Assembly: GCA_945861435.1 (NCBI GenBank) | Contig: CAMAUX010000057.1 | Location: 1-36,492 of the forward strand | Reading direction: 5' to 3' | DNA: 36,492 bases | DNA from: Chthoniobacter flavus | Lineage (GTDB): Bacteria > Verrucomicrobiota > Verrucomicrobiia > Chthoniobacterales > Chthoniobacteraceae | Part shown: one piece after another, positions 1,032-36,492 of the stretch | Position numbering within the stretch: the first letter of the stretch is position 1 | Layout: the number at the start of each line of letters is the position of its first letter | Notes under the pieces: model-generated | The model's database searches: none | The model's input: only the letters and a program-made list of their open reading frames with translations | Told to the model about the DNA's origin: nothing | Translations under genes and position numbers: made by a program

Positions 1032-4000
1032 CTACGGAGCGAGTTGCACTTTGAGGCGCAGGAACTTTCGGGCTTTGCCCGTAGAGTTGGCTGTGAAGAT
1101 CTGGCGCTGGCATCCGCCGGGTACTCCGGACTGATCGGCTGCGGCGATACCCTGGATGGTGAGCGTGGAGGATGGCGTGGCGTAATCGCTGAGTGCGCTT
1201 ACGGCTTCGGCGACGACGGTGAGGCTTTCGGAATTCGTGCGGACCACGGCGGTGATGGTGAATGCGGTGGGGGTGACGGTGGTGATGGGATCCTGACCGG
1301 TGGCCTCAGGGGTGGCCGCGCCGCCGATGGCGTATTTCATCAGCAGGGAGTCTGTGAGAGTGGCGTCGTTGCTCCATCCTGAGAATGAGCGGGAGGGAGC
1401 AGGAGTGATGGTGACCGCGACGGTGGCGGTGGCGCTGTTCTCTGTGCCGTCGGTGATTTCGAAGGTGAAGGAATCGGAGCCGTAAGCGTTGGGGTTAGGG
1501 GTGTAGGTGAAGGCGCCGGTGGAGGCTTTGCGGATGGCGACGGTGCCCTTGGAGCCTTGGGTGACGATGGAGAATGTGAGGGGATCGCTTTCGGCGTCGG
1601 AGCCGGTGAGGAAACCGCTGAAGGCGGTGTTTTCGTTGGTGGTGATGGAGCGCGGGTTGGCGACGGGGGCGTCGTTGACTGGGGTGATGGTGACCGAGAC
1701 GGTGGCGGGTGCGCTGTTGGCGGTGCCATCGTTGGTTTTGAAGGTGAAGGAATCGGAGCCGTTGGCGTCGGCGTTGGGGGTGTAGGTGAAGGCGCCTGTG
1801 GAGGTGTCGGTGATGGCGACGGTGCCCTTGGTGCCTTGGGTGACGACGGAGAAGGTGAGGGGATCGCCGTCGATGTCGGAGCCTGTGAGTGTGCCGGTGA
1901 ATGCGGTGTCCTCGTTGGTGGTGATGGGCTGTGCGTTTGCGACGGGGGTGTCGTTGACCGGGGTGATGGTGAAGGAGACGGTGGCGGGCGCGCTGGTGAG
2001 GGAGCCGTCGCTGACGAGGAAGGTGAAGGAATCGGAGCCGTTGGCGTTGGGGTTTGGGGTGTAGGTGAAGTCGCCGGTGGCGGCGTTGGTGATGACGGCG
2101 ATGCCCTTGGAAGGCTGAGTGAGAAGGGAGAAGGAGATTGCGTCGCCATCGACGTCGGAGCCGATGAGGGTGCCAGTGAAGGTGGTGTCCTCCGGGATGG
2201 TGATAGGCCTTGAGGTTGCGAGAGGGGCGTCGTTGACCGGAGTGATGGTGACGGAGACGGTGCCGGGGGCGCTGGTGGCGGTGCCGTCGTTGGCAAGGAA
2301 GGTGAAGGAATCGGAGCCGTTGGCGTTGGGGTTTGGGGTGTAGATGAAGGCGCCGGTGGCTGCGTTGGTGATGGTGGCTATGCCTTTGGAGCCCTGGGTG
2401 GCGATGGAGAAGGTGAGGGGGTCTCCTTCGATATCGAAGCCTGTGAGGGTGCCGGTGTAGGCGGTGTCTTCGACGGTGGTGAGGAATCGTGTGTTTGCCG
2501 TGGGCACGTCGTTGACCGCGGCGATGTTCATGGTGAGGGTCGCTGGCGTTGAGGAAGCGATGCCGTCGAATGCGGTGAGGGTGAAGGTTTTTGCGCCGTA
2601 CTCGTTCAGAGCCGGGGTGTAGGTCAGGTTGCCGATGTTTGCGATTGGGATGACTTGGTTGAGGGTCACCGCGGTGCCGGAGAATTTGAGGATGCCTGTG
2701 GATGGGAGGCTGGTGATGGTGATGGAGAAGAGCGCGTCCCCATTGGGATCGCTGTAAGCCGTGGTGAATGGGGTCGGGGTGAAGGTGAGTGTGGTGTCTT
2801 CACTGCCGGCGATGGACATTGCGCCGAGCGAGGGGGCGGTGTTGAGAGCGGCGTCGCCGATGCCCGTGAGGGTGAGGTCGCGGAAGGATTGGATGGAGCC
2901 GTCGTCGGCAGCGAGGCGGACGGTGTAGGAACCCGTCTTGGGAAGGTTGGCGAGCGAATCGACTGATGTGGAGGAGCTAAATCGGATGGTGGCGGGGCCG
3001 GCGCGCTGGCTCCAGAGGGTGGTGAGGTTGGGTGGCGTTGGGTAGTTGTCGTCGGTGACTGTGCCGTCCAGCGCGACGGGTGAAGGGGCGTTGGCCGCGA
3101 GGCTTTGGATGGAGACCACCGGGGCGGAATTGAGGGGGACGATGCTGAGGTTGGAGAAGGTGACGGTGTTGAGGCCGACGCCGCTTGCGTTGTCGACCCA
3201 GAAGCCGACGAGGACGGGGGTGGTCATGATGACGGTCTGCGGCTGGCCGATCTGGGTCCATGTGCCGGGTGCGCCGGAGACATCGGCGGCATGGAATGCG
3301 GTGATGGAGTTGCCCTTTCGGATGACGCGGATCCAGCGGGTGGCGCCGGTGAAGCTGGGGACGCCAGCGGGGGTTCCGCCTGCGACGGAGCGCCAGAGGA
3401 AGCCGCTGTAGGAGCCTGTGGGGATGCGGCCGACCTGGGCGTAGGCACCGCCTTCGATGTTCTCGGAGATGCGGATGCCGGAGGTGGCGGAGCCTGCGCT
3501 GGAGGTGGCGGTGGCGTGTTTTGCGGTGACCATGAGGTCGCCGGAATATTGCCATGCGTGGAAGTATCCGTTGGTGCTGCCGGCGACGGTGTAGGTGCCG
3601 GCGGTGAGGGAGGAATTGCCAGCGAGGGCGGGTGTGGCTGCGGCGTCTTCGGCGATGAGCGCAGGGGCCGCGGGTGTGGGGGTGAGGGTGACGTTGTCGA
3701 AGGTGGCGGTGGTGGAGGCGGAGGTGGAGTTGCTGGTGGTGGTGAGGCCGACGTTTGCGCGCGTGTCCATGGTGATCACGGTGGGGGTTCCCAACGTGGT
3801 CCATGTGCCCGGGGCTCCTGCGGAGTCCGGTGCGTAGGAGGCGGTGATGGCGCCGGTGGTGGAGTTGCGCTCCAGCTTGAGCCAGAGCGGGAGGGTGAGG
3901 CCGGTCTGCGTGACGACGGTGTCGTTGGTGGTCACGGCGGTGCGTGTGCGGAACTGGAGGCCGGTGCCCGGGACGTAGCCGAGCACTGCGCGGCGGGCGC

Positions 4001-7000
4001 TGCGGACCATGGCGTCGCGGATGGTGACGCCGGCGAGGCCGGTGGTGAGTGGAAGCGAGGTGAGGCGTGTGACGATGCTGGAATCGCCGTCGATGCTGCG
4101 CAGCGCGACGTGGGCTTGATCGTTGGTGGTGGCGGCGTAGCCCGCGCCGGTGCCTGTGAGGGAGAAGGTGCTGCCGAGCTGGAGGGTCTGGCCGCGTCGG
4201 CTGGAGGAGGTGCCGAGATCTTGGGTGACCCAGTCGGCTGCGGTGATGGCGCTGCCGACGACGACGGTGGTCTGGTCGCTGACGGTGAACTGTCCGTCGG
4301 TGGCGGAGAGTTGGAGGATGTAGGTGCCGGGGAGGTCGAAGGTGACGCCGGTGGAGGCTGCGGCGGCGTTGTCGAAGGTGGCGGTGCCGGGCCCTGCGAC
4401 TTGGGTCCATGCGAGGGTGAGCGGCTGGGGTTTTCCGTCGTCGGCGACGGTGGCGGAGAGCATGACTCCGTTGCCTGCTGCCACGAGGGCGCCCTGCGCG
4501 CCGGGGCCTGTGATGAAGAGGGAGGGCTGCGCGTCGTTGTCCGTGATTTCGACGCTGGCGAAGGAGTTGGCGCCGATGTCGTAGCTGCCGGTGCCCAGAG
4601 AGATGGTGACGAATTCCGAGGGTTCGGTGAGGAGGTCGTCGACGGGGAGGATGTCGATGGTGCGGCTGGCCTGGCCTGCGCTGAAGACAAGGGTGGTGAT
4701 GGTGGTGGGGCTGGTCGTGTAATCGGTGGTGCTCGTGGCGGTGCCGGAGACGGTGAGGTTGACGGTGAGCGCGACGCCGAGTGGTTCGGTGCGGGTGATG
4801 GTGAACTGGCCCGGATGGCCTGCATCCTCGGAGGCAAGGGGGATGTTGGCGACGATGGAGACGGTGCTGCGGTCGTCGTCTGCGATGCTGACGGTGGCGG
4901 AGGTGGCGGTGCCGAGTTTGTAATTGGAGGCGCTGGCGCTCAGCGTGAGGATGACGGTCTCGGTGCCCTCGTTGGTGGTGTCTTGGATGGGTGTGACGGT
5001 GACTGTGGCGGTGGCCTGGCCGTCGGGGATGAGCACGGTGCCCGGGGTTGCGATGGCGGCGTAGTCGGTGCCGCTGGTGGCGGTGCCGCTGCGGGTGAAG
5101 CCGACGGAGAGAGCGCCGCTGAGCGAGCCTGTGCGGGCGAAGGTGAAGGTGCCGGTGTCGCCGGCTTCGTTTGCGTTGGGGTCGGAGGCGGTGAGGTTGA
5201 CGGTGGGGAAGTCGTCGTCGTTGATGGTGAGGGTGTGGGTGGTGATGGCGCCGAGTTGAGCGCCCGAGGGGTTGGAGAGTGTGACGAGGAGGGTTTCGTC
5301 CGGTTCGCTCACGGCATCCTGGAGGATGGGGATCGCGGGAATGGCCTTGAGCGTTTCGCCGGGGGCGAAGGAGAGGGTGCCTGCTGCGGCTTGGTAGTCG
5401 GCGCCTGCCGTGGCGGAACCGTTGGCAGTGGCATAGGCGACGGTGATGATGGAGGAGGCCGGGCGGCTGAGGCTCACGAGGACGGAGGCGGAGCCGTCGG
5501 ATTCGTTGACGGAGGATGTGCCGGAGGCGAAGGCGACGAAGGGGGTGCTGGTGGCGGCGTCGTTGTCGATGATGGTGTAGGTGAACTGGGTGAGGGCGCC
5601 GAGGATGGCGGCGGTGGGGTTGCGGAGCAGGAGGACGATGTTGTCGCCGGGTTCCGGGGCGTTGTCGTCGGTGATGCTGAGGGTGATGTTTTTGGTTTGT
5701 TCGCCGACCTCGAAGGTGAGGGTGCCCGCGTTGAGGGTGAAATCGACGCCGGAACCGAATGCGGTGGAGACGGAGGTGGTGCGTGCGATGGATTCTGCGG
5801 AGGCGGTGGAGACGGAGCCGATGTAGACCATGCGGCCGCGGTAATTATCGTCTTCCCGGACCATGATGCCGGCTTGTGCGGTGGTGGCGCCGCCGGTGAG
5901 GGAGGTGATGCGGGCGGCAATGCTGAAGTCGCCGGTGACGGATTGCGCGGGGAAGTAGCATTCGTCCTGAGTGCTTGTGTTGATGCCGGCGCCGGAGCCG
6001 ACGACGGTGTGCACGCCGTTGGAGAGGGAGTAACTTCCCTCTTCGTTGACGAAGCCGATGGTGCGTCCGTTGAGGGTGCCTGCGGTGGATCCGTTGAGGG
6101 TGAGTTGGTCGAAGGTGGCGGTGGTGAAGCTGCCGTCGGATTTGGCGGAGACGGCGAAGCCCGCGAGCAGGGTGGGGGGGAGTGCGAGGGTTTGCGGGGT
6201 GCCGACTTGTGCCCATGAGACTCCGTCGCGGGAGATGGAGGTGGTGAAGACGTCGCCGGCGCGATCGAGGCGCAGCCAGCTTGGGCGGGAGGTTGGGGTG
6301 AAGTTGGAGGGGTTGGTGGCGGTGCCGTTGGTGGTAGCGCGAGCGAAGATGCCGATGCTGTTGGAGGGCATGACGGCGGTCATCGCGTGCATGGAGCCGG
6401 TGGCTGTGGATTCGCGGATCATCACGGCTGCGCGGGCCGAGGTGTTGGTGTTGGTCTGGGAAACGACGCGCGCGGTGAGGGTGCAGGTGGTGGAGTTGGT
6501 GATGGGGAACCAGAGGTAGCGGAATGCGTCCCCTGTTCCGGTGATGTCTGCGCCGGCGCCGCTGATGGAGTAGGTGCCGCTGGAGGAGGTGGCGCTGCCG
6601 GTGGCGCCGACGGTGCCGATGTCCGCGGTGCTGCTTGCGCCCTGGGTGCCGCCGTTGGCGAGGCCTGTGACGGTGACGTTGTCGAACACGACCGCGCAGA
6701 GGGTGCCGGCCACATGCGAGGTGACGGCGAGGCCCGCGAGGTAACTGGTGCTCGACATGGAGATGGTCTGGGCTGTGCCGAGTTGGGTCCATGTGACGCC
6801 GTCGGGCGAATGGTAGCTGGTGAAGGAGGTGCCGTTGCGCACCATGCGCAGCCAGTAGGGGACGGGCGAAACCGTGGCTGTCGCGGTGACTGCGGAACGG
6901 GTGCCGCTATCGGCCGCGTATTCGACGGTGACACGCTGGGTGGCGGGGGAGGCGAGGGTGACGGGGATGTTGACCGTGGCCACGGATTCGAGGCCGGAGG

Positions 7001-10000
7001 CGCCTGCGCTTTGGAAGGCGACGGTCTGGGTGCTGGTCTCGTTGTCGGCGATGTACATCACGGCGCCGGGGCCTCGTGCATAGGCGCCGGGAGCGAAGTC
7101 GAAGGTGATGGTTTCCACTCCCTCGAAGGTGGTGTCGTTGGTGATGACGACGGGGACGTCGGCGCCGAGGGAGCCTGCGGCGATGGTGACGGTGCCGCTG
7201 AGTGCGGTGTAGTCGGAGCCCGCGGTGGCGGTGCCGCCGATGGTGTAGTTGACGACGAGTGCGGCGGTGGTGCTGCCGGTGCGCGAGACGTAGAATTTGG
7301 TGGGGGTGGAGGTGGTGCCTTCGGTGACGGTGGAGCTTCCGGAGGTGCCGACTTGGGTGTCGACGAAGACGGTGGGTTGGTCGTCGTCCTTGAGCCACAT
7401 GGTGGCGGAGGAGGTGGGCGGGTACGTGGTGTAGGAGGCGCTTGGAGTGAGGGTGAGGATGATGGTTTCGAGTTCCTCGGCGGTGGTGTCGTTGACCGGG
7501 GTGATGACGACGTCCTTGGTGACGGTGGCTCCGTTGGAAAGAGTCACGCTGGTGCCGGTGCTGGTGTTGCCTGTGCCGGTGACTGTGTAGTCGGTGGTGA
7601 ATGTGGCGGTGCCGCCGAGGGTGAAGGCGATGGGCAGTGTGCCCGTGCCCGTGCCGCCGCGCACGGTGATGCGGAAGGTGCCTGTGGTGGAGGGTTCCGA
7701 GGCGCTGGAGGTGTTGACGACGTCGACGGTGGGCAGGTCGGTGGGGGCGTCGTTGATGGTGACGGTGGCGGAGCTTGGAGAGCCGAGCACGTAGTTGGTG
7801 GTGCCTGCGCCAAGGGAGAGGACGACGGATTCCGGGCCTTCGCCCATGTTGTCGAAGCGAGGGAGGATGGTGATGCTGGCTTGGGTGGAGCCTGCGGGGA
7901 TGATGACGGAGCCGGGGAGGGCTTCGTAATCGACGCCGTGGAGGGCTGCGACGCCGGTGCTCGGGGTGCCCGTCATGGCGTAGTAGACGGTGAGGGGGTT
8001 GGAGGTGTCGCCGCTGCGGGTGATGACGAAGGTGCCGGTGTCGGGGACAGCGCCTGGGACGGTGAGGTCGACCTCGGTGGCGGTGGGGTCGGTGGCGACG
8101 ACGGTGATGGTCTGAAGGTCGTTGTCGATGAGGTTGACGGTGGCGTTGGTGGCCAGTGGATCGATGAGGTAGGCGGCGTTGGTGCTGAGCGTGAGGCTGA
8201 TGGTTTCCAGTGGTTCGGAAATGGTGTCGTCGACAGGGACCACGCTGATGGTGGCGGAGGCGGAGCCTGCGGGGATGAGGAGGGTGCCCGGGAGCGTGGT
8301 GTAATCAGCGCCCGCGGTGGCGGTGCCGCCGACCGAGTAGAGAACGGTGAGGGCGGTGGTGGTGGCGCCGGTGCGCGTGATGGTGAAGAGGCCCTGCTGG
8401 GAGGAGCCTTCCTGCGTGGTGTCGCGGGTGGCGGTGATCGAGATTTTCGGGAGCGCGGTGTCGTCGTCTTCGATGACCACCGTGGCGCTGGAGCCTTTGC
8501 CCACGAGGTAGCCGTTGCCCGGGCCGAGTTGGAGGATGACGGTTTCCGGGCCTTCGGCGGAGGTGTCGACGACTGGGGTGACGGTGATGTCGAGGGTGGC
8601 GGAGTCGGCGGGGATGGTGAAGGTGGAGAAGCCCTGGCTGGCGTTGACGTAGTCCGGGGAGAGCGTGTAGTCGGACGTTTTCGTGGCACTGCCGAGGGCG
8701 GTGTTCACGTTGACCACGAGGCTCTGTGTGGTGTCCCCGGTGCGTGTGAGGGTGAAGCGGCCGGTGGTGACGGGGGCGAGTTCCTTGGCGGTGGGGATGG
8801 AGGCGGCGATGGTGACGACGGGCAGGGGGCTGGCTTCGAAGTCTGCGCCGGAAGCGCTGGGGCTTACGGTGATGCTGTTGTTGAAGAGTTCGCCGAAGGA
8901 GTAGCCGTAGAGCAGCGGCGTCATCGTGTAGGTGTTCGCGGAGAGGTTGGGGATGGAGTAGGAGCCGTCGGCGTCGGTGACCACGCCGTTGGAGCCGTTG
9001 GCGGTGACGACGACGTCCGGCAGGCCAACGCCCATGAGGGTGATGCGGCCGCTGATGGTGTAGCGGCTGTTGCCCGTGCCCACGGTGATGAGGCGGGAGC
9101 GTGTGGAGGTGCCGCCTTTCATGTCGCTGACGGTGCAGCTCACCACGTAGCTGCCCGCGGTGGAGAAGGTGCGGGTGATGACGGGTGTGTTGCCTGAGAC
9201 GAGCTTCACCGAGGTGTCCCCGAAATGCTGCCAGTAGTAGGCGAGCGCATCGTTGTCGGGATCGGAGGCGGAGGCGGTGAAGGTGACGGTGGCGCCGAGC
9301 GGGACGACCTCTGCGGAGGCTGTGAGGGAGAGGGTGGGAGGGCGGTTGGAGCTGAAGTCGCCGAAGTTGACGACGACATCGGCGTAACGCGGGGTGTCGT
9401 TGACGGCGATGGTGGTCATGTGGATGCCGGTTTCGAGATCGGAGAAGGTGTTGCCGACGGCGATGGGGGCGTCCGACTGGGAGAAGGGGGAGCCCGGGGT
9501 GACGTCGATGCGCTGGAGGTTGGAGCCGCTGCCATTGGGATAGCGCCAGCCGAGGAGCACGCCGTTTTTGGCCCACGGGTTGGTGTCAAAGAGCGAGCGG
9601 AGTTCGCCCCAGTAGGTTTTCTGGGAGTCCTTGGTGACGGTGAGAGCGTAGCGGCGGCCGGGGACGAGGACGCCTTGGTCGAATGCGTAGAGCCTGTACT
9701 GGCCGCTCTGTGCGATGGACTCGATGAAGGCCGGTGGGAGCCATTTGATCTGCGACTTGGCTTGGGCGTTGTAATGGCCGGCAGGGAAGGATCCGGAGTT
9801 GCCCATGATGTCGTAGGTGTCGCCGTACTCGAGATTGGTGCCGGCGCCGATGGCGCTGGTGCCCGCGGTGTCCCAGGAGTTGGAGTGGCCGAGGCCGAAG
9901 CAGTGGCCGATTTCGTGGGCCCATGTGCCTGTGCTATCGCTGCGCATCCACACGGTGCTGCCGCCGGCGAGGCCGCCATAGGAGCCGGGGCCGCCGTTGT

Positions 10001-11297
10001 GGCGGACGACGATGCAGTCGTAGTTATTGGAATCGAAGCCGAGTTTGCGTGCTTCGTCGCGGGCGTGGCTGTGTTCGAGGGAGGTGCCGCTGATGTCGCC
10101 GCCGTTGGTGGTGTCGCGGTTCACGTACCATGCCTCGTTGTGAGCGAGTTTCACAGGCGGGGTGACGGTGCCCACGAGCGTGAGCCTGCCGAAGGAGGCT
10201 TTCGCGTAAAAATCGCCCACGTCGCGGAGCACGTTGTAAAGGGCGGCCTCGGTGGACGGGACGCCGTTCTGGTCGGCGTAAGTCATGGGGATGGCGAGGA
10301 CGCGGACCACGCCGAGGGCGGGGGTGGGTGCGGCGGGGAGGATGCCGGTGAAGCCGAGGGAGCCTCCGGTGACGCCTTCGCCGTAGAGGATCGTCTGGTT
10401 GTAGGTTTCGACGTGGTACTGGCCGCAGAGCTGGACGATCTGGGTGGCGGTTTCGACGGCGGGCGTTTCTTCGGTGATGGGTGCGCCCTCGGCCAGCGAT
10501 GCGCCCGGGGTGACGAGGCCGGAGACGGGGCAGATGGTGACGGAGGGTTTTTCTGGGGGAGGGACCTCGCCGACTTCGAGGGTGCGGGAGGGGTTTTCGT
10601 TGAGGGCGAGTTGGCGATCGATGGAGATGCCGTTGAGGGATGCGTTGGCGGTCCATGTGACCACCTCGGAGCGTCGGCCGTAGACGTAGGCCCTGTAGGT
10701 GCCGCCGTCTTTGAATTCGACCTCGCGGAAGGTGAGGGAGCGCGGCGGGGTCGGGTCGCCGGCCATGGGCACGCCTTGGAGGACGCGCAGGACGCCGATG
10801 GCGTTGTGCCGGTCTTCGAGGCGCTCGAGGACGGCGGGTGGGAGGTTCTGGCGGAGCACCATGGGGACTGCGTGCTCCAGCGCTTTGCGCGGATCGGCGA
10901 CGATCACTGCGCGGAGCTCTGGTCGGCGGGCCTCGGCGAGCTGGCGTCCTTCTTCTACAAGGGCCGCGCGTTCGTGTTCAGGAGCGGAGAGGTAGCGTTC
11001 GGCCCAGTGATAGAAGGCTGCGCTGGCTGGGGAATCGACGCGGCTGGCCATTTGCGCGGCGATGTGTGCGGGCTGCGGCGGGGTGTTTGCGGGCGGCTTT
11101 GCGGGAGCCTGCGGGGTGGGCTGGGGTGGCGCTGGGGAGGGGGCTTCGGCGGGGCTGGCCGTTGTGGACTGTGCGATTTCCGAGCGGGGAGTCGGCTGTG
11201 GGGTGGGGTGGGGTTGTGGGCTTCGGAGTGCGAGCCAGAAAACAACGGTGCACGCGAGTGCGAGGAGGAGGAAATGGACGCGTCGGGGGGGGCGCAT
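1032..11297 (-). CDS. Giant exported metzincin protease / Calx-beta / cadherin-like surface protein
   Basis: This 3421-residue protein starts with an uncleaved-anchor or Sec-type hydrophobic segment (residues ~8-25) and a Pro-rich linker. A metalloprotease domain follows (~300-530) with the zinc motif HEIGHCFGLGH near 458-468 and a Met-turn-like YGDTYDIMGN; this is an HExxHxxGxxH metzincin, closest in feel to the M6/M11 types. Next come a PKD-like domain (~650-740), a carboxypeptidase-regulatory-like domain (~745-800), nine Calx-beta modules with D-N-D/D-D-D ends, four lectin-like (DUF1349-type) beta-sandwich modules, another PKD-like domain, and five cadherin-like repeats (~2820-3300). The last ~110 residues resemble a C-terminal module seen on large exported Verrucomicrobia proteins. 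The sixth Calx-beta module is split by a permuted insertion (~1466-1840). The likely role is a cell-surface or secreted, calcium-dependent adhesin/protease. It is transcribed alone, convergent with the DUF5069 gene. Confidence 0.85.
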   Translation of the reverse strand: MRPPRRVHFLLLALACTVVFWLALRSPQPHPTPQPTPRSEIAQSTTASPAEAPSPAPPQPTPQAPAKPPANTPPQPAHIAAQMASRVDSPASAAFYHWAERYLSAPEHERAALVEEGRQLAEARRPELRAVIVADPRKALEHAVPMVLRQNLPPAVLERLEDRHNAIGVLRVLQGVPMAGDPTPPRSLTFREVEFKDGGTYRAYVYGRRSEVVTWTANASLNGISIDRQLALNENPSRTLEVGEVPPPEKPSVTICPVSGLVTPGASLAEGAPITEETPAVETATQIVQLCGQYHVETYNQTILYGEGVTGGSLGFTGILPAAPTPALGVVRVLAIPMTYADQNGVPSTEAALYNVLRDVGDFYAKASFGRLTLVGTVTPPVKLAHNEAWYVNRDTTNGGDISGTSLEHSHARDEARKLGFDSNNYDCIVVRHNGGPGSYGGLAGGSTVWMRSDSTGTWAHEIGHCFGLGHSNSWDTAGTSAIGAGTNLEYGDTYDIMGNSGSFPAGHYNAQAKSQIKWLPPAFIESIAQSGQYRLYAFDQGVLVPGRRYALTVTKDSQKTYWGELRSLFDTNPWAKNGVLLGWRYPNGSGSNLQRIDVTPGSPFSQSDAPIAVGNTFSDLETGIHMTTIAVNDTPRYADVVVNFGDFSSNRPPTLSLTASAEVVPLGATVTFTASASDPDNDALAYYWQHFGDTSVKLVSGNTPVITRTFSTAGSYVVSCTVSDMKGGTSTRSRLITVGTGNSRYTISGRITLMGVGLPDVVVTANGSNGVVTDADGSYSIPNLSANTYTMTPLLYGYSFGELFNNSITVSPSASGADFEASPLPVVTIAASIPTAKELAPVTTGRFTLTRTGDTTQSLVVNVNTALGSATKTSDYTLSPDYVNASQGFSTFTIPADSATLDITVTPVVDTSAEGPETVILQLGPGNGYLVGKGSSATVVIEDDDTALPKISITATRDTTQEGSSQQGLFTITRTGATTTALTVLYSVGGTATAGADYTTLPGTLLIPAGSASATISVVPVDDTISEPLETISLTLSTNAAYLIDPLATNATVNLIDNDLQTITVVATDPTATEVDLTVPGAVPDTGTFVITRSGDTSNPLTVYYAMTGTPSTGVAALHGVDYEALPGSVIIPAGSTQASITILPRFDNMGEGPESVVLSLGAGTTNYVLGSPSSATVTINDAPTDLPTVDVVNTSSASEPSTTGTFRITVRGGTGTGTLPIAFTLGGTATFTTDYTVTGTGNTSTGTSVTLSNGATVTKDVVITPVNDTTAEELETIILTLTPSASYTTYPPTSSATMWLKDDDQPTVFVDTQVGTSGSSTVTEGTTSTPTKFYVSRTGSTTAALVVNYTIGGTATAGSDYTALSGTVTIAAGSLGADVPVVITNDTTFEGVETITFDFAPGAYARGPGAVMYIADNETSTQTVAFQSAGASGLESVATVNIPVTLASPATQRVTVEYAADSGTRSAVTATATVSPVPYWLRMVRNGTSFTSYHSPDGVTWTQLGTAQTISMSSTSYLAGLAVTSHVAGTLCAVVFDNVTVTGLANGGTQGASSTADIGTVGATGSATSSSGTYSISGAGADITGTGDAFRYLWFPITNSTTCTLTARVVSQTNTNTSARAAVMIRESTATGSMHAMTAVMPSNSIGIFARATTNGTATNPSNFTPTSRPSWLRLDRAGDVFTTSISRDGVSWAQVGTPQTLALPPTLLAGFAVSAKSDGSFTTATFDQLTLNGSTAGTLNGRTIGFVNEEGSYSLSNGVHTVVGSGAGINTSTQDECYFPAQSVTGDFSIAARITSLTGGATTAQAGIMVREDDNYRGRMVYIGSVSTASAESIARTTSVSTAFGSGVDFTLNAGTLTFEVGEQTKNITLSITDDNAPEPGDNIVLLLRNPTAAILGALTQFTYTIIDNDAATSTPFVAFASGTSSVNESDGSASVLVSLSRPASSIITVAYATANGSATAGADYQAAAGTLSFAPGETLKAIPAIPILQDAVSEPDETLLVTLSNPSGAQLGAITTHTLTINDDDFPTVNLTASDPNANEAGDTGTFTFARTGSLSGALSVGFTRSGTATSGTDYAAIATPGTVLIPDGQATATVTVTPIQDTTNEGTETVILTLSASASNYKLGTATSATVSIADDDRSTVSIVANIPLASEDAGHPGQFTITRTEPLGVALTVNLTVSGTATSTTDYTTSPTTITTLVFSAGQASRTIDILPVDDLLTEPSEFVTISLGTGSYDIGANSFASVEITDNDAQPSLFITGPGAQGALVAAGNGVMLSATVADDGKPQPLTLAWTQVAGPGTATFDNAAAASTGVTFDLPGTYILQLSATDGQFTVSDQTTVVVGSAITAADWVTQDLGTSSSRRGQTLQLGSTFSLTGTGAGYAATTNDQAHVALRSIDGDSSIVTRLTSLPLTTGLAGVTIRDAMVRSARRAVLGYVPGTGLQFRTRTAVTTNDTVVTQTGLTLPLWLKLERNSTTGAITASYAPDSAGAPGTWTTLGTPTVITMDTRANVGLTTTSNSTSASTTATFDNVTLTPTPAAPALIAEDAAATPALAGNSSLTAGTYTVAGSTNGYFHAWQYSGDLMVTAKHATATSSAGSATSGIRISENIEGGAYAQVGRIPTGSYSGFLWRSVAGGTPAGVPSFTGATRWIRVIRKGNSITAFHAADVSGAPGTWTQIGQPQTVIMTTPVLVGFWVDNASGVGLNTVTFSNLSIVPLNSAPVVSIQSLAANAPSPVALDGTVTDDNYPTPPNLTTLWSQRAGPATIRFSSSTSVDSLANLPKTGSYTVRLAADDGSIQSFRDLTLTGIGDAALNTAPSLGAMSIAGSEDTTLTFTPTPFTTAYSDPNGDALFSITITSLPSTGILKFSGTAVTLNQVIPIANIGNLTYTPALNEYGAKTFTLTAFDGIASSTPATLTMNIAAVNDVPTANTRFLTTVEDTAYTGTLTGFDIEGDPLTFSIATQGSKGIATITNAATGAFIYTPNPNANGSDSFTFLANDGTATSAPGTVSVTITPVNDAPLATSRPITIPEDTTFTGTLIGSDVDGDAISFSLLTQPSKGIAVITNAATGDFTYTPNPNANGSDSFTFLVSDGSLTSAPATVSFTITPVNDTPVANAQPITTNEDTAFTGTLTGSDIDGDPLTFSVVTQGTKGTVAITDTSTGAFTYTPNADANGSDSFTFKTNDGTANSAPATVSVTITPVNDAPVANPRSITTNENTAFSGFLTGSDAESDPLTFSIVTQGSKGTVAIRKASTGAFTYTPNPNAYGSDSFTFEITDGTENSATATVAVTITPAPSRSFSGWSNDATLTDSLLMKYAIGGAATPEATGQDPITTVTPTAFTITAVVRTNSESLTVVAEAVSALSDYATPSSTLTIQGIAAADQSGVPGGCQRQIFTANSTGKARKFLRLKVQLAP
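1395..2610 (-). repeat. Tandem 279-bp coding repeats (cadherin-like, 93 codons each)
   Basis: The motif gtgaagg (part of the S-D-S-F-T-F codons on the minus strand) starts at 1465, 1744, 2023, 2302 and, more diverged, 2581. Every step is exactly 279 bp, or 93 codons. Each unit encodes the same order: NEDTAFTGTLTGSD-type start, D-G-D-P-L-T-F-S, T-G-A-F-T-Y-T-P-N, N-G-S-D-S-F-T-F, and the ending V-T-I-T-P-V-N-D. Four units are close copies and the N-terminal-most unit is longer and diverged. These are calcium-binding cadherin-like/VCBS-type beta domains at the C-terminal end of the giant protein. Confidence 0.85.
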
Positions 11298-11599
11298 GGG
11301 GGGCGGGGTGGAGGAGGACTGCCGAGGGGGTGGAGGGGCCCTGATTTCCTACTTTAATTTGGTGTTAACTACGAGTTGTTTCCATTCATGGGTGATGGGT
11401 TTGTTTTTCAGGAGTTAATCAAGGCTGTTTGGTGTATTTAGATATATGCAATGCGCTGATTTCGTTGTTGTTATGAATGGGTTTGCCGGAGGCCCGCTCG
11501 CATGGGCTCGGACACGGTGCGCGGACGCAATGGGGCGATGGAAAACGGGGGCCGGGATGCAGCTCGGCGTTGGATGCGCAGAGCGAGGGGCCTGGCGGC
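11298..11599. other. Intergenic gap with an A+T-rich core
   Basis: This 302-bp gap lies between the 3' end of lpxK and the 5' end of the giant gene, both on the minus strand. The part at about 11350-11480 is strikingly A+T-rich for this neighbourhood and is where the giant gene's promoter should lie. I could not choose a convincing -35/-10 pair. The part nearest the giant gene's start (11300-11340) is C-rich on the mRNA strand and shows no clear Shine-Dalgarno sequence. No small ORF with recognisable similarity is seen. Confidence 0.45.
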
Positions 11600-23254: not shown

Positions 23255-24114
23255 TGACCGCGCTCCAGAACCATCCGCAACCCGGTCGCATCCGATGGTC
23301 CGCTTTGAGCGACCGCGGCAAGGTGCGGCAGAACAACGAGGATGCCTTTCTTGGTTTGCGCTTTGATGGGCGTGAGGCGCAGTTGCTCGGAAAGTTCGGA
23401 GAGACTTCCCTCGCCAGCCACGACTGTGTGTTTGCGGTGAGTGACGGGATTGGAGGTGCGCAGGCCGGGGAGTTTGCGAGTCGGATTGCGGTGGAAAAGA
23501 TCACGCGGTTGTTGCCGCGCGCGTTTCGTCAGGCCGGGCAGGGGATGGAGGCAGGGTTCGCGGACGTGCTCGCGGAGTTGTACACGCAGATCCACCGGGC
23601 GTTGCTTTTCCTCGGGGGGAGTTATGAGGAATGCGCGGAGATGGGGGCCACGCTGAGCCTTTGCTGGCTGAGTCCGGGGCGGATGTGTTTCGGGCATGTC
23701 GGCGACAGCCGGATCTACTATCTACCGGCATCGGGCGGCATCCGGCAGATCACGCACGACGACACGCACGTGGGCTGGTTGTTCCGGAACGGGAAGCTCA
23801 ATGAACGGGAGGCGCGCAATCATCCGCGCAGGCATTTTCTCCAAAAAGCGCTGGGCGCGGGTCATCAGTTTGTGGATCCGCAGGTGGGCTCTGTGGTGTG
23901 CGAGGTGGGCGATGTGTTCCTGCTCTGCAGCGACGGGGTGGTGGACGGGCTTTTTGATGAGCAGCTCCTCGAGTTGTTGCGGGAGCCGGCGCGGGCACGG
24001 GGGCGCGGGCGCGGCAAGTCCACGCCTGCGCAGTTGCTGGTGCGTGAGGCCCTGGAGCGTTCCGGGCGCGACAACACAACGGCTGTGGTGGTGGAAGTCT
24101 GCGGGCCGGTCTGA
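23254..24114 (+). CDS. PP2C-family serine/threonine phosphatase
   Basis: This 286-residue, soluble, metal-dependent phosphatase of the bacterial Stp/PrpC type shows all main motifs: S-D-R-G-K-V-R-Q-N-N-E-D-A at 19-31, V-S-D-G-I-G-G at 62-68, G-D-S-R-I-Y-Y near 150-156, L-C-S-D-G-V-V-D-G near 226-234 and the terminal R-D-N-T-T-A-V-V. The start is fixed by the taatg overlap with the preceding kinase-like gene; an upstream GTG at 23209 would lie inside that gene. The tight coupling suggests that the two act on the same target or on each other. A short Arg-Gly-rich stretch (residues ~248-258) is a small oddity. Confidence 0.93.
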   Translation: MTALQNHPQPGRIRWSALSDRGKVRQNNEDAFLGLRFDGREAQLLGKFGETSLASHDCVFAVSDGIGGAQAGEFASRIAVEKITRLLPRAFRQAGQGMEAGFADVLAELYTQIHRALLFLGGSYEECAEMGATLSLCWLSPGRMCFGHVGDSRIYYLPASGGIRQITHDDTHVGWLFRNGKLNEREARNHPRRHFLQKALGAGHQFVDPQVGSVVCEVGDVFLLCSDGVVDGLFDEQLLELLREPARARGRGRGKSTPAQLLVREALERSGRDNTTAVVVEVCGPV

Positions 24115-24302
24115 CGCGCACAGCGTGGAAGGGGGCTGCATCCTCGAGGTGAACCATCTGCCTGCAGGAGCCCGCCCGAGACAACTTCCCTGCGAGGCCT
24201 TCTCACGCGCCTGCCTGTGGCCATGGGCCGTGAGGCGGTAAGTCTGCGGGGCCGCGGATCGCCACACTCTTTCCGAGCGCCGGCACACCGTGATTGCGTT
24301 GA

Positions 24303-24710
24303 GTTTGCCCAATTTCCGGATCTGAAATACCGGTTCCCGAGGACACCTTGCGACGCGAGTTTTTCACGACTTCGGGGAAAAAGTTGAAGTCTCTAACGCC
24401 GCGAGAAATGGTTGATTTCAAGGAGATAAACGGCATTTCCATTGCGGCTTTGCTGAAGCGGGCGGAGGCGGTGAACCCCGTGACTCCTCAAACGCGCAGA
24501 GAGTTTTGGATTAAATACAGGATGGCGGGATATCGGACGAAGGGGGAGCCTGGACGGTACGCCGGCGTGGAACGCCCCACGCGTTTTCGGCGCCTTCTTT
24601 TGCGCGCGGTTGCTGATGAGATTATCTCCCTGTCGAAAGCGGCAGTCTTAGCGAACACGACGATCGAGTCGATTCGTGGCGACTTTACGTTGTCCGTGGG
24701 AGCCGCATGA
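24303..24710 (+). pseudogene. C-terminal fragment of an ImmA/IrrE (COG2856)-like antitoxin protein
   Basis: The frame is open from just after a TGA at 24300 and encodes about 135 residues. The C-terminal half (R-R-L-L-L-R-A-V-A-D-E-I-I-S-L-S-K-A-A-V-L-A with T-I-E-S near the end) resembles the tail of XRE/ImmA-IrrE proteins that pair with PIN toxins. The HTH and the H-E-x-x-H zinc site expected upstream are absent, and 24115-24302 contains no recognisable remnant, so I call it truncated. It ends in an ATGA overlap with the PIN frame, typical of a coupled toxin-antitoxin pair. A TTG at 24348 could still allow translation of a 120-residue piece. Family assignment is from memory and moderate. 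Confidence 0.5.
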
Positions 24711-24922
24711 ATGTCGTTATACACGACACGTCTGTGTTTGTGGATTTGGCGGAAGGAGGCTTGCGAGAGCTTTTTTTCCGGCTGGGAATTTGCTCGATGA
24801 CAACCAGTGCGGTGGTTGAAGAGATCAAGCACGAGAGCCAGCAGCAACTCCTGGAGAGGTTTACGACAGGAAGGGCGCTGACAGACCGTGAAAAAGTCCG
24901 CAACACTATGCGTAGGAAATAA
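24707..24922 (+). pseudogene. Truncated PIN-domain toxin (N-terminal part)
   Basis: The 71-residue frame begins M-N-V-V-I-H-D-T-S-V-F-V-D-L-A-E, the first acidic strand of a PIN nuclease, and contains the second acidic element E-E-I-K-H near 38-42. A full PIN toxin of this class needs ~140-160 residues. The later acidic residues (T-x-D/G-D) and the last strands are missing, and the frame ends in a basic M-R-R-K tail. The start overlaps the preceding antitoxin-like frame by four bases. It is probably inactive. Downstream sequence to 24974 holds an inverted repeat taacac/gtgtta around 24952-24971 that could act in termination. Confidence 0.6.
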
Positions 24923-24974
24923 GAGGGAAACTTCGGAAAATTAGGTCTATAACACAATCTTACGTGTTAGGTGC

Positions 24975-25088
24975 TTACAGGCGAAGTAATGATATAGGGA
25001 TGATCTCGGAATAATGATCGAAGTCGGGGTCGGATGTGAAAATCTGATACTGACGACGTGAGGCAAAGGCGCAAATAAGGAAGTCAAT
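24975..25088 (-). pseudogene. VapC-like PIN toxin, 3' fragment cut by IS insertion
   Basis: On the minus strand, positions 25088 to 24978 encode 37 residues, followed by a TAA at 24977-24975. They read I-D-F-L-I-C-A-F-A-S-R-R, then Q-Y-Q-I-F-T-S-D-P-D-F-D-H-Y and a hydrophobic tail ending L-L-R-L. This is the characteristic last third of VapC PIN domains: an acidic D-F/C-L-I-A helix start, then T-x-D-x-D-F. The coding sequence begins at the very base where the IS left end starts, so the upstream two thirds were separated by the insertion. They should lie beyond the right-hand IS copy. It belongs to a different PIN subfamily from the plus-strand fragment at 24707. Confidence 0.65.
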
Positions 25089-25226
25089 CACAGCCATCCC
25101 ACAGCCTGAGGAAACCGAGGTTCTGAAGGGACTTTTACAGAGGGAGGGTGGCGAAATTTGAGGGGAGGCAATTGCAGCTTTTGCGAGCGGGATTTTCTTT
25201 CTCGGGTGGCTGCTGTCCCATGAGAT

Positions 25227-26387
25227 TTACGCTGTGGAAGCGGTTTTTTGGCCTGCGGGAGGGGCCATCCCAGAGAGCCAGAGCTGCTGCCAAGCTTCAT
25301 GAAGCGCCCCGATAAATCGTATTCGTCCCGATGCTGTCCCATAGCTTTTTAAGAACTCAAGCAGGTCGAGCCGTTCCCAAACCGCTGAGCGCACCACCGC
25401 AAAAAGCCGCGTGAAGCTGTGCGCCCAGGCTGACAAAAATCCCTGGAAGCGCATTAGCACGTACACCAGTAGGGCCGTGTACACCTGCCAGCGCACTGCG
25501 TTGGCGCTGTGGCCCAAAAAATTGCTCAACTTCAAGGTCTGTTTGACCTGTTTAAAAAATACCTCGATGTCCCAGCGCCTCCGGTAGAGGTCGCACACCG
25601 AGCGCGGACTCCAGCTCAGATTGTTGGTGATAAAAACCAGCAGGCGTTCTTCTCCGTTAATTTCGACCTGCGCCTCCACGAGTCGTAGCAGCATGCCTTC
25701 GTGCTTGGCGTTCTTGAGCACAACGAGCTGGTCCTTGAGAATGCCTTTGACCCCTTTAGTCAGGGTCTTTTTTGCCTTGTAGGCCAGGTTCTCTTTGGCG
25801 CGGCTCACCCACCAGACCTCACGTTCATTTAGGTCCCTAAGGTGCTCGAAATCGACGTAAGCCTTGTCGAAGACGACGATTTCACCGGGGGCAATACCCG
25901 CACAGACCTCGCGTGCCCGCCTGTTGTCGTGATGGGCAGCGGTGTCGACAACGGCAAAGGAGGGAAGAAAGCTGTGCAGGTCGAGGCGCAGGTGCATTTT
26001 GGCGGCGGCCTTGCGTCTGCGGTGTTTGGCCCAGTCGATGCAGTTGGCGACCAGTTCCATCACAGTGGAATCGACGGCGTGAATCCTGACCTTGAAACGG
26101 TGCAGGAGGCCCTTGCCTTTTTTGCCCGAGGCAAAGCGCGGCTGGATGTTCTGAAGGTGTGCGAGAACCGACCAGAAAAGCGTTTCGATGAAGTCAGCTG
26201 AACGCACCTTGTTTGCGTGAGAAAGAGCGTTGCGCGAGGGTGGTACGATTTGAAGGCGGCTCAAAGCCGCTGCTTTGAGCCGAAGCCAGTCGCAAACGTC
26301 GTTGAGACTGATGGCATGCGAAAGCTGTGCAAAGAGCATGGCAGCCAGGTGGCTCAAAACGCTGAAGGTGCGAGCCTTTGTGTCCAC
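25227..26387 (-). CDS. IS4-family DDE transposase
   Basis: The transposase has the catalytic acidic residues in order: D106 in H-A-V-D-S-T, D174 in F-D-K-A-Y-V-D-F, and E275 within the signature Y268-R-R-R271-W-D-I-E275-V-F-F-K-Q-V-K282. This is an exact Y-x2-R-x3-E-x6-K match that defines IS4-type enzymes. The listed start is a GTG. The same frame is open back to 26486 and encodes family-like residues (F-S-L-K-Q-L-L-N-F-I-P-R-S-V-L), but no ATG, GTG or TTG occurs in it, so the true N-terminus is longer with an unusual start or this copy is slightly defective. The catalytic core is intact. Confidence 0.9.
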   Translation of the reverse strand: MDTKARTFSVLSHLAAMLFAQLSHAISLNDVCDWLRLKAAALSRLQIVPPSRNALSHANKVRSADFIETLFWSVLAHLQNIQPRFASGKKGKGLLHRFKVRIHAVDSTVMELVANCIDWAKHRRRKAAAKMHLRLDLHSFLPSFAVVDTAAHHDNRRAREVCAGIAPGEIVVFDKAYVDFEHLRDLNEREVWWVSRAKENLAYKAKKTLTKGVKGILKDQLVVLKNAKHEGMLLRLVEAQVEINGEERLLVFITNNLSWSPRSVCDLYRRRWDIEVFFKQVKQTLKLSNFLGHSANAVRWQVYTALLVYVLMRFQGFLSAWAHSFTRLFAVVRSAVWERLDLLEFLKSYGTASGRIRFIGALHEAWQQLWLSGMAPPAGQKTASTA

Positions 26388-26492
26388 CCCAGTTTTGCGG
26401 GCGGTTTGATTGAGGACGCTCCTCGGTATGAAGTTGAGAAGCTGCTTGAGTGAGAACGATAATGTCGGCGCGGGCTGGTTTTTGGTTCACAC

Positions 26493-26510
26493 CCCTACTG
26501 TGTGGTAGGG
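26493..26510. other. Hairpin in the IS upstream of the transposase
   Basis: The sequence ccctac (26493-26498) pairs with gtaggg (26505-26510) around a six-base loop, between the IS right end and the transposase. Hairpins at this place in insertion sequences can reduce translation of transcripts that read in from outside. Here the reading-in transcript would be that of the sulfatase operon. No T run follows, so it is not a classical terminator. Confidence 0.4.
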
Positions 26511-26594
26511 ATCCTTTCTCCAGCCCAACTTTTTTAACCTGCCACCTCATTCCTGTGGGACGGCTGTGTCATGATTACATTTCTTTGATGGCAT

Positions 26595-28373
26595 TCAATC
26601 AAGCCGGCGGACGCTGACGTAATAGGCGCCGCAGATCTCCTTGCCCTGATCGTCGAGGAAGGTGCCGCGCAGCATGGTCTGGCCCTGCTTGAGGGAGATG
26701 TTGAACACGGCAACCGTATCGGTCTGAGTCACTTCTTTTGCGCCCTTGAACTCACCTGCGCTCAGCCGCGCCTTCACAATAGGAAAGGCCTTGCCGGCGG
26801 GAAGTCGGTGGTTACCGAGCACGGAGTCCCAGGCGGGCACCGTGCCGCAGATGGCGGTATTCGCCTCCTCCGGCCATCGACGGAGAGCGATTTCGTAGTG
26901 ACCGTCGCGCGCCACTTGGATGAACCATTGATCCATCGTGTAGGTGCCTCTGCGCACCATTTCTGGAGAGAGACCTTTCTGCTCGTACTGCGTCGACGGC
27001 ACCAGCATGGACGGATTTTCATGGTCGTCGCCCACGATGATGGCGCTGCGCCTGGTCGTCCATGGCTCAACGTCTTTCCACCATTCTGCATAGGCTGCGC
27101 GCAGCTTCGCGACGATCTCTGGCTGTATGGCGCTCACATCCCTCTGCTGGCCCGGGTCGGTGGCAAGGTCGTATAATTCGCTTTCCACCAGACGCCAGCG
27201 CCCCCACATGACGGCCAAAGGTTTTTGCGCGGGATCAATGCCTGGGGCGGCTTTCCGAGGATAGCCGTGTTGAACAACCAGTATCCGGTCAGGCGGCTCC
27301 TGCCCCGCTTTTTGGAGCACTGGCGCGAGGTTGATGCCGTCAAATTTGGCCCCAAGCGTTTGCTTCAGACCGCACAGCCCGATCAGCGTCGGCACCAGAT
27401 CCTGCACCTGTGTTAGGCCGGACACTTCGCCCGGCGGCCGCAGTCCGCCGGACGGCCAACGGACAAACAACGGGGAGCGATGGCCGCCCTCCCAGGGCGT
27501 CGCCTTGCTCCCGCGCATCCCGGCGTTGTAGAGGTCTGACATGTTGGCGGTGCCGTTATCATGGAGAAACATCAGGATCGTGTTCTCGCGCAGACCTGAC
27601 TGGCGGAGGAAGGCGTCCAGTCGACCCATGTTTTCATCCACATTGGCCAGCATGCCGAGGACTTGCCGATGGTTCGGCTTCTGATCCTTGTAGGGCTCGC
27701 AATATTTTTGCGGCACAATCAGCGGCGTATGGACCAGAGGTAACGGCAGATAGCAGAAGAAAGGCTCCCCGCCTTTACTCCGCTGATCCATCCACTTCAT
27801 GGCTTCGGTGAACACAATGTCGTTCACGTAGCCCTTGAGCTGGACCGGCTTGCCGTCGGCGTGGCGGAGCCACGGATCGACATAATCGTTGCACCAGGTG
27901 TCGTCAGACACGCCGACAAACGCCGAGTTGAAATAGAGCACGTCCTTGAAGCCACGGTCCTGTGGACGGAAGGGATAATTGTCGCCCAGATGCCATTTGC
28001 CGAACTGCCCGGTGCGATAGCCGTTGGCGGCGAAGATATCGGCCACCGTCGGCAAGTCAGGGCGGAGTAACATCCGCGAGCCTGCGACCACGCTCGCGCC
28101 GTTGCGGAAATTATCCACGCCGGTCAACAGTTGTGAGCGGGTGGGAGTGCAAAATGGAGTCACGTGGAAGTCGGAAAACCGCACGCTTTCCTGGTGAAGC
28201 TTGTCCACGTTGGGCGTCTTCGCCACCGGGTTGCCGTGGCAGGCGTAGTCGCCATAACCGGCATCGTCGACCAAGATGACGATGACGTTTGGTTTGGCGC
28301 CGAGTGCCGCAGCGTTCAGCGCCGCCAGCGGCGAGAGGAACAGGGCGGCGAGGAGTGGTAGCGTGAACTTCAT
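26595..28373 (-). CDS. Exported sulfatase (formylglycine type), CTPTR active site
   Basis: This type I (S1-superfamily) sulfatase has 592 residues read from ATG at 28373, where a Sec signal begins (M-K-F-T-L-P-L-L-A-A-L-F). An ATG 39 bp upstream gives a longer, less signal-like start. The metal site V-D-D-A-G-Y-G-D is at 35-42. The residue converted to formylglycine is C75 in C-T-P-T-R, followed by L-L-T-G. The His/Lys motif G-K-W-H-L-G is near 140. The long C-terminal region, past the D-N-G metal motif, ends in a beta domain that the shorter sulfatase lacks. It is the last gene of the presumed operon, 126 bp after the second sulfatase. The substrate cannot be read from sequence. No maturase (FGE or anSME) is encoded in the window. 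Confidence 0.92.
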   Translation of the reverse strand: MKFTLPLLAALFLSPLAALNAAALGAKPNVIVILVDDAGYGDYACHGNPVAKTPNVDKLHQESVRFSDFHVTPFCTPTRSQLLTGVDNFRNGASVVAGSRMLLRPDLPTVADIFAANGYRTGQFGKWHLGDNYPFRPQDRGFKDVLYFNSAFVGVSDDTWCNDYVDPWLRHADGKPVQLKGYVNDIVFTEAMKWMDQRSKGGEPFFCYLPLPLVHTPLIVPQKYCEPYKDQKPNHRQVLGMLANVDENMGRLDAFLRQSGLRENTILMFLHDNGTANMSDLYNAGMRGSKATPWEGGHRSPLFVRWPSGGLRPPGEVSGLTQVQDLVPTLIGLCGLKQTLGAKFDGINLAPVLQKAGQEPPDRILVVQHGYPRKAAPGIDPAQKPLAVMWGRWRLVESELYDLATDPGQQRDVSAIQPEIVAKLRAAYAEWWKDVEPWTTRRSAIIVGDDHENPSMLVPSTQYEQKGLSPEMVRRGTYTMDQWFIQVARDGHYEIALRRWPEEANTAICGTVPAWDSVLGNHRLPAGKAFPIVKARLSAGEFKGAKEVTQTDTVAVFNISLKQGQTMLRGTFLDDQGKEICGAYYVSVRRLD

Positions 28374-28499
28374 AGGTGAATGGAATGAGCTGGGGCCGGT
28401 CTGGGGCAGCAAAAGCGGCGCGCGGCCACTGGAAAGGTTTCCTTATTCTGAGCCTGAGGTTCCGCCAAAGGCCTTTAGATGCTGGATTTTCCTTCCGCG

Positions 28500-29930: not shown

Positions 29931-29998
29931 AACTTGGATTTCTGGAGACAATGCTAATTTTGATCTTGGGAGCCGGTCGGGTCCACCCGCCCGAAATC

Positions 29999-32080: not shown

Positions 32081-32188
32081 GAAAAATAGAACCCGGGGCC
32101 TTTTAAAGGCGGCGAATCGAGGAGGTTTGGTAGTCACTTTAACTTTGGTTGTTATCGAACAAGCACCGCTTTCGTGTTAATTTGAATG

Positions 32189-36001: not shown

Positions 36002-36363
36002 CGGTGGAAGCGGAATGGGTTGCCCGGCTGCTCGCCAAGAGTTGGGACTTGGTGTCGGTAAGTTACGGCGCGGATAGAAATTTCCCATAGGACATGTTTT
36101 GTGATCCATCAGACATTCTTGGGTGCTCCGTATGTGGCGCCGCCTCATCCCCCCTTTCGGTTCCAACCGGGAAATCTTCCACACTCGTGACTGTCCCCGA
36201 TGGCTTATTTGACGCGCCCCGCGATGGCCAAACCACCAACATAATCTCTCATCGCGAGTAGCTCAAAACTCGGGGGCACTCCAATTGGTTTTACCAGAAG
36301 CAATCCGCTGTTGTGCACCCAGTATTTTTTGAGGACAGTTCTCCTACTCACGGCGTGAATTAA
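36002..36363 (-). promoter_or_regulatory. Operon upstream region and a possible gene remnant next to the IS
   Basis: This 362-bp region separates the first operon gene from the second IS copy and should hold the operon promoter, probably in the last ~150 bp before 36001. I could not choose a -35/-10 pair with confidence. On the minus strand, 36363 to 36205 is an open frame of 52 codons ending in TAA. It reads from the IS edge (L-I-H-A-V-S-R-R-T-V-L-K-K-Y-W-V) to a tail L-A-I-A-G-R-V-K. It could be the 3' end of a gene interrupted by the IS, perhaps a regulator, but I do not recognise it and chance is not excluded. Confidence 0.4.
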
Positions 36364-36366
36364 AAT

Positions 36367-36492
36367 CACAGCCATCCCACAGCCTGAGGAAACCGAGGTT
36401 CTGAAGGGACTTTTACAGAGGGAGGGTGGCGAAATTTGAGGGGAGGCAATTGCAGCTTTTGCGAGCGGGATTTTCTTTCTCGGGTGGCTGCT
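36367..36492. mobile_element. IS4-family insertion sequence, right copy (left end only)
   Basis: From cacagcc at 36367 to the window end, the sequence is identical to 25089-25214, the left end of the complete IS, in the same orientation. The flank three bases to the left (aat) is shared and the base before that differs. The visible part covers the terminal repeat and the non-coding stretch downstream of the transposase stop; the stop codon itself would be just outside the window. A complete element would extend to about 37.85 kb. Confidence 0.9.

Follow-up and report, generated by a model that had tools for sequence, protein, structure and literature searches.

A probable ancient insertion of a circularly permuted DUF1349-like sandwich into the sixth Calx-beta domain of a zinc-peptidase-like protein of Verrucomicrobiota

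The plant-specific insert of plant aspartic proteases, or swaposin, is a permuted saposin, explained by permutation by duplication in PMC3320104, which also describes concanavalin A as a protein permuted after translation. Nested domain insertions of the form A1-B1-C-B2-A2, in which the halves of a host enclose a domain whose own halves enclose another, have also been described, with inserts smaller than their hosts in 77.0% of events according to PMC13114784. Here we describe a Calx-beta domain of a bacterial protein that is interrupted by pieces of a DUF1349-like sandwich in permuted order. As in the swaposin, a permuted member of a family that also forms tandem arrays in ordinary order sits inside an unrelated protein, its C-terminal half before its N-terminal half. 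Unlike the four-helix swaposin, the insert is a beta-sandwich, its host is a different one and constitutes one repeat of a domain array, and either one or two units are present, the second nested in the first, where the swaposin has a single unit. The sequence order A1-B1-C-B2-A2 is found here too, with the differences that the middle domain is permuted, that B and C come from one family and that the insert exceeds its host in size (379 against 111 aa). The best structural matches of the permuted sandwich, the glucanase CPA16M-127 (1ajo) and concanavalin A, are likewise permuted jelly rolls; they are not inserted in a host domain, and the likeness is structural, with no sequence relationship shown. 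The host domain belongs to the same family (PF03160) as the Calx-beta domains of NCX/CALX and integrin beta4, and the model of one relative superposes on CALX-CBD1, but here the loop after GGT is interrupted by about 200 (in the relative L053) to 379 residues (in the gene under study). Literature searches for a Calx-beta domain with a domain insertion or circular permutation, and for a permuted inserted jelly roll, returned no description of this arrangement. Permuted and nested insertions are thus already known, while this variant is without precedent in the literature searched.

The split Calx-beta domain and its host gene

The window, that is, the whole 36,492-nucleotide stretch analysed, is an entire contig (C57) of a Chthoniobacter flavus genome of 5.35 Mb in 105 contigs. 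The host gene encodes, in order, an N-terminal hydrophobic segment, a metzincin-type HExxHxxGxxH region, a PKD domain, a carboxypeptidase-regulatory-like domain and nine Calx-beta domains, one of them split, followed by a second PKD domain, two sandwiches and cadherin/Big_9 repeats; Pfam reports Calx-beta, Big_9/cadherin, PKD and DUF1349. Judged by its sequence, the product is a long, secreted, zinc-peptidase-like bacterial protein. The zinc metzincin-type signature was recognized as a sequence motif, HEIGHCFGLGH. Peptidase M66 (PF10462), matched over a region that includes this motif, scored 20.2 bits in this gene and 19.9 bits in its relative L039, below the cut-off of 20.6, and the gene is therefore not filed as M66. 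The features are as follows.

1032..11297, reverse strand: host gene, 3421 aa, single open reading frame
9885..9917, reverse strand: HEIGHCFGLGH zinc-peptidase motif, residues 461-471
6900..7028, reverse strand: N-terminal part of the split sixth Calx-beta, residues 1424-1466, Pfam positions 7-49 of 119
6651..6899, reverse strand: C-half of the outer (permuted) sandwich, residues 1467-1549, HMM 105-176 of 176, 87.8 bits
6084..6650, reverse strand: complete inner sandwich with linkers, residues 1550-1738, HMM 1-175 of 176, 189.4 bits
5763..6083, reverse strand: N-half of the outer (permuted) sandwich, residues 1739-1845, HMM 3-97 of 176, 69.9 bits
5559..5762, reverse strand: C-terminal part of the split sixth Calx-beta, residues 1846-1913, Pfam positions 52-119 of 119
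3681..4223, reverse strand: downstream sandwich D1, ordinary order, residues 2359-2539
3138..3632, reverse strand: downstream sandwich D2, ordinary order, residues 2556-2720

The N-terminal part of the Calx-beta ends in AADSGT at nt 6900 and the C-terminal part begins with AFGSGVDF at nt 5762, which leaves an insert of residues 1467-1845 (nt 5763-6899). The original prediction had placed the first break correctly, near residue 1466, but had set the restart at about 1840 instead of 1846 and the insert at about 370 residues. It had also pointed to an ACC codon at both breaks; the codons are there but are uninformative, ACC making up 12.7% of the codons of the host gene and two random points both having one within two codons in 24% of cases.

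The two Calx-beta parts scored 13.3 (N) and 32.5 bits (C) against PF03160, and 56.9 bits over positions 7-119 in a single stretch once joined, so that the joined halves, like the C part by itself, pass the cut-off of 27 bits and the N part by itself does not. As had been proposed, the joined halves score as one Calx-beta domain. For the sandwich we used an HMM built without the window gene and the two-copy orthologues known by then, L053 staying in. It recovered the predicted series of C-half, full copy and N-half; the outer halves joined in family order (N then C) gave one domain (HMM 3-176, 161.5 bits), and in the order found (C then N) they broke into two. In both domains, then, the halves complement each other, and few residues, if any, are missing or repeated where they were parted. 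When cruder, fixed cuts were applied to all 16 split genes described below, every one of the 16 joined sandwiches reached 112-238 bits; the gain of joined over summed halves lay between -5.0 and +5.9 bits in the case of the sandwich and between -6.2 and +4.2 bits in that of Calx-beta; the evidence thus lies in positional complementarity and not in a large rise in score. DUF1349 (PF07081, cut-off 32.4) is exceeded both by the whole gene (46.3 bits) and by the 490-aa segment that spans the split domain and its insert (43.2 bits), the best stretch in the segment being the outer C-half (108-177 of 179). On this segment Pfam marks DUF1349 twice and Calx-beta twice, and in neither case does the best stretch cover more than a C-terminal part. 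The locus also serves as a test case for domain annotation, since whole domains appear only when the pieces are paired correctly.

Several other features of the window were recorded. A 279-bp repeat (3.9 copies, 81% matches) occupies positions 1405-2482, in the cadherin-like C-terminal part of the host gene, and this part, where alignable, shares 27-32% identity with four orthologues; for the rest of the protein the values are 42-73%. Opposite the host gene, on the forward strand, run reading frames at 3105-6218, 6387-9197 and 9225-11357 (1037, 936 and 710 aa), probably a by-product of its GC-rich codons. From 24000 to 36492 the GC content drops from about 60-68% to 53-60% and the GC skew goes from about +0.1 to +0.4 down to values near zero or lower. 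This part encodes a DDE transposase (25227-26387) and, after it, two sulfatases and one DUF6807/DUF7133/cytochrome c protein.

Predicted structure of the insert and its host domain

We modelled the 490-aa segment with AlphaFold2 from six orthologue rows (mean pLDDT 73.3). The sandwich stretches mostly reach pLDDT 74-95, with some blocks at 59-67, whereas the Calx halves are low, with ten-residue means of 28-65 (model residues 1-50) and 31-72 (421-490), and are not resolved in this model. Its best match among solved structures is the circularly permuted glucanase 1ajo_B (Z 11.8, 3.5 Å, 169 of 213 residues, model 44-419), followed by concanavalins at Z about 8. The outer C-half and N-half together count about 180-190 residues, so the simplest course for the match is from C-half to N-half, bridging the inner copy; the ranges give first and last residues, and the pairing is read from these ends and the counts. 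Most simply, then, the two halves would pack as one sandwich. For the relative L053, which carries no inner copy, a 313-aa module, encoded at L053:7385-8323, was modelled from an alignment of 21 rows, eight of them uninterrupted Calx-beta domains (mean pLDDT 85.2). This model matched CALX-CBD1 (3ead_A) over 110 residues at Z 15.0 and 1.7 Å (model 1-313) and 1ajo_B over 165 residues at Z 12.0 and 3.4 Å (model 52-234). Since the eight uninterrupted rows favour the pairing of the Calx halves, that part of the L053 result is not independent evidence. A plain Foldseek list also holds 1ajo and Calx domains, at high rmsd or over short alignments, and the inner copy compared by sequence with solved structures gave weak matches only, the best being a designed propeller (E 0.00046). 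The sandwich halves are thus predicted to pair in the window gene and in one relative, and the Calx halves in L053 only; neither model has the independent domains on each side that would have spoken against the nested arrangement. The suggested link to lectins comes down, in these models, to the shared jelly-roll fold.

Distribution of the split and the empty site

The split is carried by 16 Verrucomicrobiota genes. Fourteen hold two sandwich-equivalents (the window gene, G003, G008, G035, G013, L041 and the near-identical L042, L043, L044, L154, L155, L156, L158 and L159), and two (L053 and L157) hold a C-half followed by an N-half with no full copy, which is a plain permuted sandwich inside a Calx-beta. 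Those of known kinship belong to four families (f1, f17, f18 and f125) of one class. The break points in host and sandwich agree within a few residues across one-copy and two-copy versions. Taken as a series of permuted units, the insert consists of C-N once or twice, and the full copy is the N-half of unit one plus the C-half of unit two.

Among 147 genomes, comprising the genome itself and its relatives, four other genes matched the 490-aa segment end to end (G013 from residue 3), with identities of 59% (G003, same genus), 59% (G008), 49% (G035) and 43% (G013). For the insert these values are 58, 56, 48 and 42%, against 63, 70, 53 and 44% for one flank and 63, 69, 53 and 49% for the other; the insert is nearly as conserved as its surroundings. 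A first scan of named genomes with a single-protein query found no match, and a second with an alignment query found L039 (taken as G008), L040 (taken as G035), L041-L044 and L053, all in Verrucomicrobiota metagenome assemblies. We then scanned with profiles of the two junctions. In the order sample, 5 of 213 genomes span both the Calx-N/C-half profile (from 1-2 to 126-127, at least 166 bits, next best 86) and the N-half/Calx-C profile (2 to 173, at least 246 bits, next 95.5). In the class sample, 8 of 384 genomes match the first profile over a stretch that starts no later than position 4 and reaches at least to 121; they are the same eight whose peptidase scores at least 293 bits against the window's (next 226.7), and all eight are split: seven are two-copy and one (G368) one-copy. 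Such a match occurs in 5 of the 387 genomes of the phylum sample, none of them outside the window's class. Six genes were opened in full, of which L157 is one-copy and L154, L155, L156, L158 and L159 are two-copy. No relative was found in phages.

Weaker wide matches to the first profile were left outside the count, among them G667 (7-121), G748 (9-120) and G633 (6-122) in the class sample, G539 (5-122) and G422 (6-124) in the phylum sample, and G094, G109, G062 and G089 in the order sample. The gene L169, which yielded no row, was not counted either. Four further candidates were rejected on inspection: G165:C169 (16-173 of the N-half/Calx-C profile) is really two ordinary Calx-beta domains, and G041:C15, G018:C44 and G001 (3-122 of the Calx-N/C-half profile, 58 bits) are ordinary sandwiches.

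The alignment with genes lacking the insertion, as had been suggested, revealed the empty site. Six paralogues of like build (L118-L123, from genomes G028, G013 and G031) have an uninterrupted sixth Calx-beta, and the aligned split copies join at their GGT-A; for example, GGT-ALGGGIDH corresponds to TGA-[insert]-ALGDGIDH in the split gene of G035. In nine more Calx-rich paralogues (L160-L168, six to nine Calx-beta matches each, family labels f15, f17, f18, f97 and f127) we found no partial Calx-beta of this kind; L162 and L163 come from genomes that hold a split gene too, and genome G013 has a split gene plus both kinds of uninterrupted paralogue. The sandwich family itself occurs as back-to-back units in ordinary order, three in L010 and two each in L045, L047 and L049. 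D1 and D2 are in ordinary order, so that the family stands in tandem in the window gene as well. They form groups of their own in half-domain trees (100/99 and 100/99 for the N-half, 100/99 and 100/95 for the C-half), and the insert is thus not a recent copy of either; with 95 and 68 columns, these trees resolve little else.

That the contig is an assembly chimera, or carries a recent rearrangement, is vanishingly improbable: the gene is repetitive and the genome a draft, but the order recurs in 13 other genes besides the two one-copy versions, the reading frame stays open, and GC3 is 0.86 in the insert against 0.88 in its flanks. The shared order rules out an accident of this contig. An ancient insertion stays compatible with it, since the site is empty in close paralogues; the order is indeed shared by orthologues, within one class and not throughout the phylum sampled. 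The earlier idea of a recombination or loop-out from a domain array holds insofar as an out-of-phase array piece fits the data, but a recent event is unsupported, the order being common to 14 genes. It is also improbable that the outer halves do not pair and are decaying leftovers around one working sandwich. The half-domain trees leave some room for this, being poorly resolved and with outer copies that diverge about as much as inner ones. Conservation of outer and inner copies is alike, however (within-group identity 46 against 40% for the N-half and 41 against 47% for the C-half), the joined outer halves reach 112-238 bits in every split gene, L053 and L157 have no other sandwich copy at the site, and the best match of the model is a permuted jelly roll spanning both halves.

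Origin, history and a possible role

We favour, with a probability of about 0.8, the ancient insertion of a circularly permuted domain: an out-of-phase piece of a tandem array would lie in a Calx loop, folded as a side arm. The order, the conservation, the one-copy and two-copy versions and the uninterrupted paralogues are established at the level of the genes compared; the origin of the piece from a tandem array is what we infer. A tandem array of DUF1349-like sandwiches would have been cut inside a loop (at about HMM 97-105) to a whole number of units, and the piece would have inserted into the post-GGT loop of the sixth Calx-beta in a secreted, zinc-peptidase-like protein, in a swaposin-like event after which the insert gained or lost a unit. 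The Calx halves would close around the insert, and the outer sandwich would assemble from its C-half and N-half, each of them tethered to the Calx loop; the second unit, where present, would be a complete sandwich at the site of the original ends of the outer one. The outcome would be a nested Calx(sandwich(sandwich)sandwich)Calx. Calx-beta repeats in tandem form a rod. Held by both ends in a loop, the insert would stand off this rod as an arm of one or two sandwiches, lengthened by the second unit. Such an arm would most likely add binding surface for the substrate of the peptidase, in a fold presumably of carbohydrate-binding type, because a peptidase-like domain stands at the front of the protein and sandwich domains occur elsewhere in it. 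Should the predicted fold of the arm be correct, the protein illustrates a way for a single chain to form a branch.

We considered whether the piece entered by a single crossover of a circle at a shared motif, an idea prompted by GGTAT-like peptides in Calx and sandwich loops (TTNGTAT in the inner sandwich, for example), and found no support for it. In 11 unsplit genes, in-frame 9- and 12-mers common to sandwich and Calx coding DNA were too few (69 and 3); the count in 12 split loci was spoiled because the HMM alignment of the sandwich C-half extends into the Calx N part. In profile-profile comparison the junction pair was not at the top, ranking 281 of 16,830, 320 of 16,296, 270 of 15,770 and 202 of 15,252 for windows of 7, 9, 11 and 13.

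As far as the comparison of genes goes, the insertion is old and inherited, neither a sequencing error nor recent. Its history was followed in a tree of the region from the peptidase to the fifth Calx-beta (25 rows), in which ten split rows form their own group (100/100) and L053 stands beside the six uninterrupted genes (100/99). A single clade of all split rows was rejected (p-AU 0.0023), as it was with 12 rows (0.0027), 16 rows (0.019) and a shorter region with 21 rows (0.048). Since the split rows are not one clade, there was either one gain followed by a clean loss or two gains at one residue. We lean towards the single gain because the break points agree in both domains. Two independent insertions, in the split clade and again in L053, at a residue preferred in both domains, are the less likely history; they would account for the position of L053 in the tree and for the rejection of the single clade, and GGT-A-like peptides are indeed present both in Calx loops and in the corresponding loop of the sandwich. 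One gain and one loss, by contrast, requires no positional coincidence; L053 is a long branch (0.67), and the profile likeness of the two loops is unremarkable (ranks above). The N-half of L053 is also somewhat nearer to the inner N-half of the split genes, with up to 56% identity and 37% on average, than to the outer one (up to 42%, on average 35%) or to the downstream sandwiches (at most 36% for D1 and 34% for D2); its C-half is nearer to neither inner nor outer C-half.

L157 falls near the base of the split group, which hints that one copy preceded two, support for a single two-copy clade being 50/0 and, in another tree, 60/36. Its unit is nearer by identity to the outer N-half and the inner C-half, and the one-copy form may have arisen by deletion from two copies. 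Permutation by duplication predicts partial intermediates, and here one gene family displays an uninterrupted host, one permuted unit and two nested units, each in relatives whose position in a tree can be given.

It is conceivable, though doubtful and less probable still than two gains at this site, that the sandwich family repeatedly enters other domains as a permutant in whole-unit doses and so branches linear rods, having done so twice independently at one Calx residue (split clade and L053) and once, with another break point, in the unrelated protein L137. The latter (L137:2547-7061, on G002:C18, same genus as the window) has a second permuted sandwich at about residues 484-664, where the profile runs 123-172 and then 2-122; this protein ends in a HATPase_c domain, and the region around the sandwich is one that we take to be OB-fold-like. 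A separate interruption was seen in the fourth Calx-beta, which is whole in the window gene and split in five split genes (L036/L039, L041, L042, L044 and L158, in the last at residues 1253-1522) by about 266-270 residues of VWAVGDGG-like repeats, presumably beta-propeller-like.
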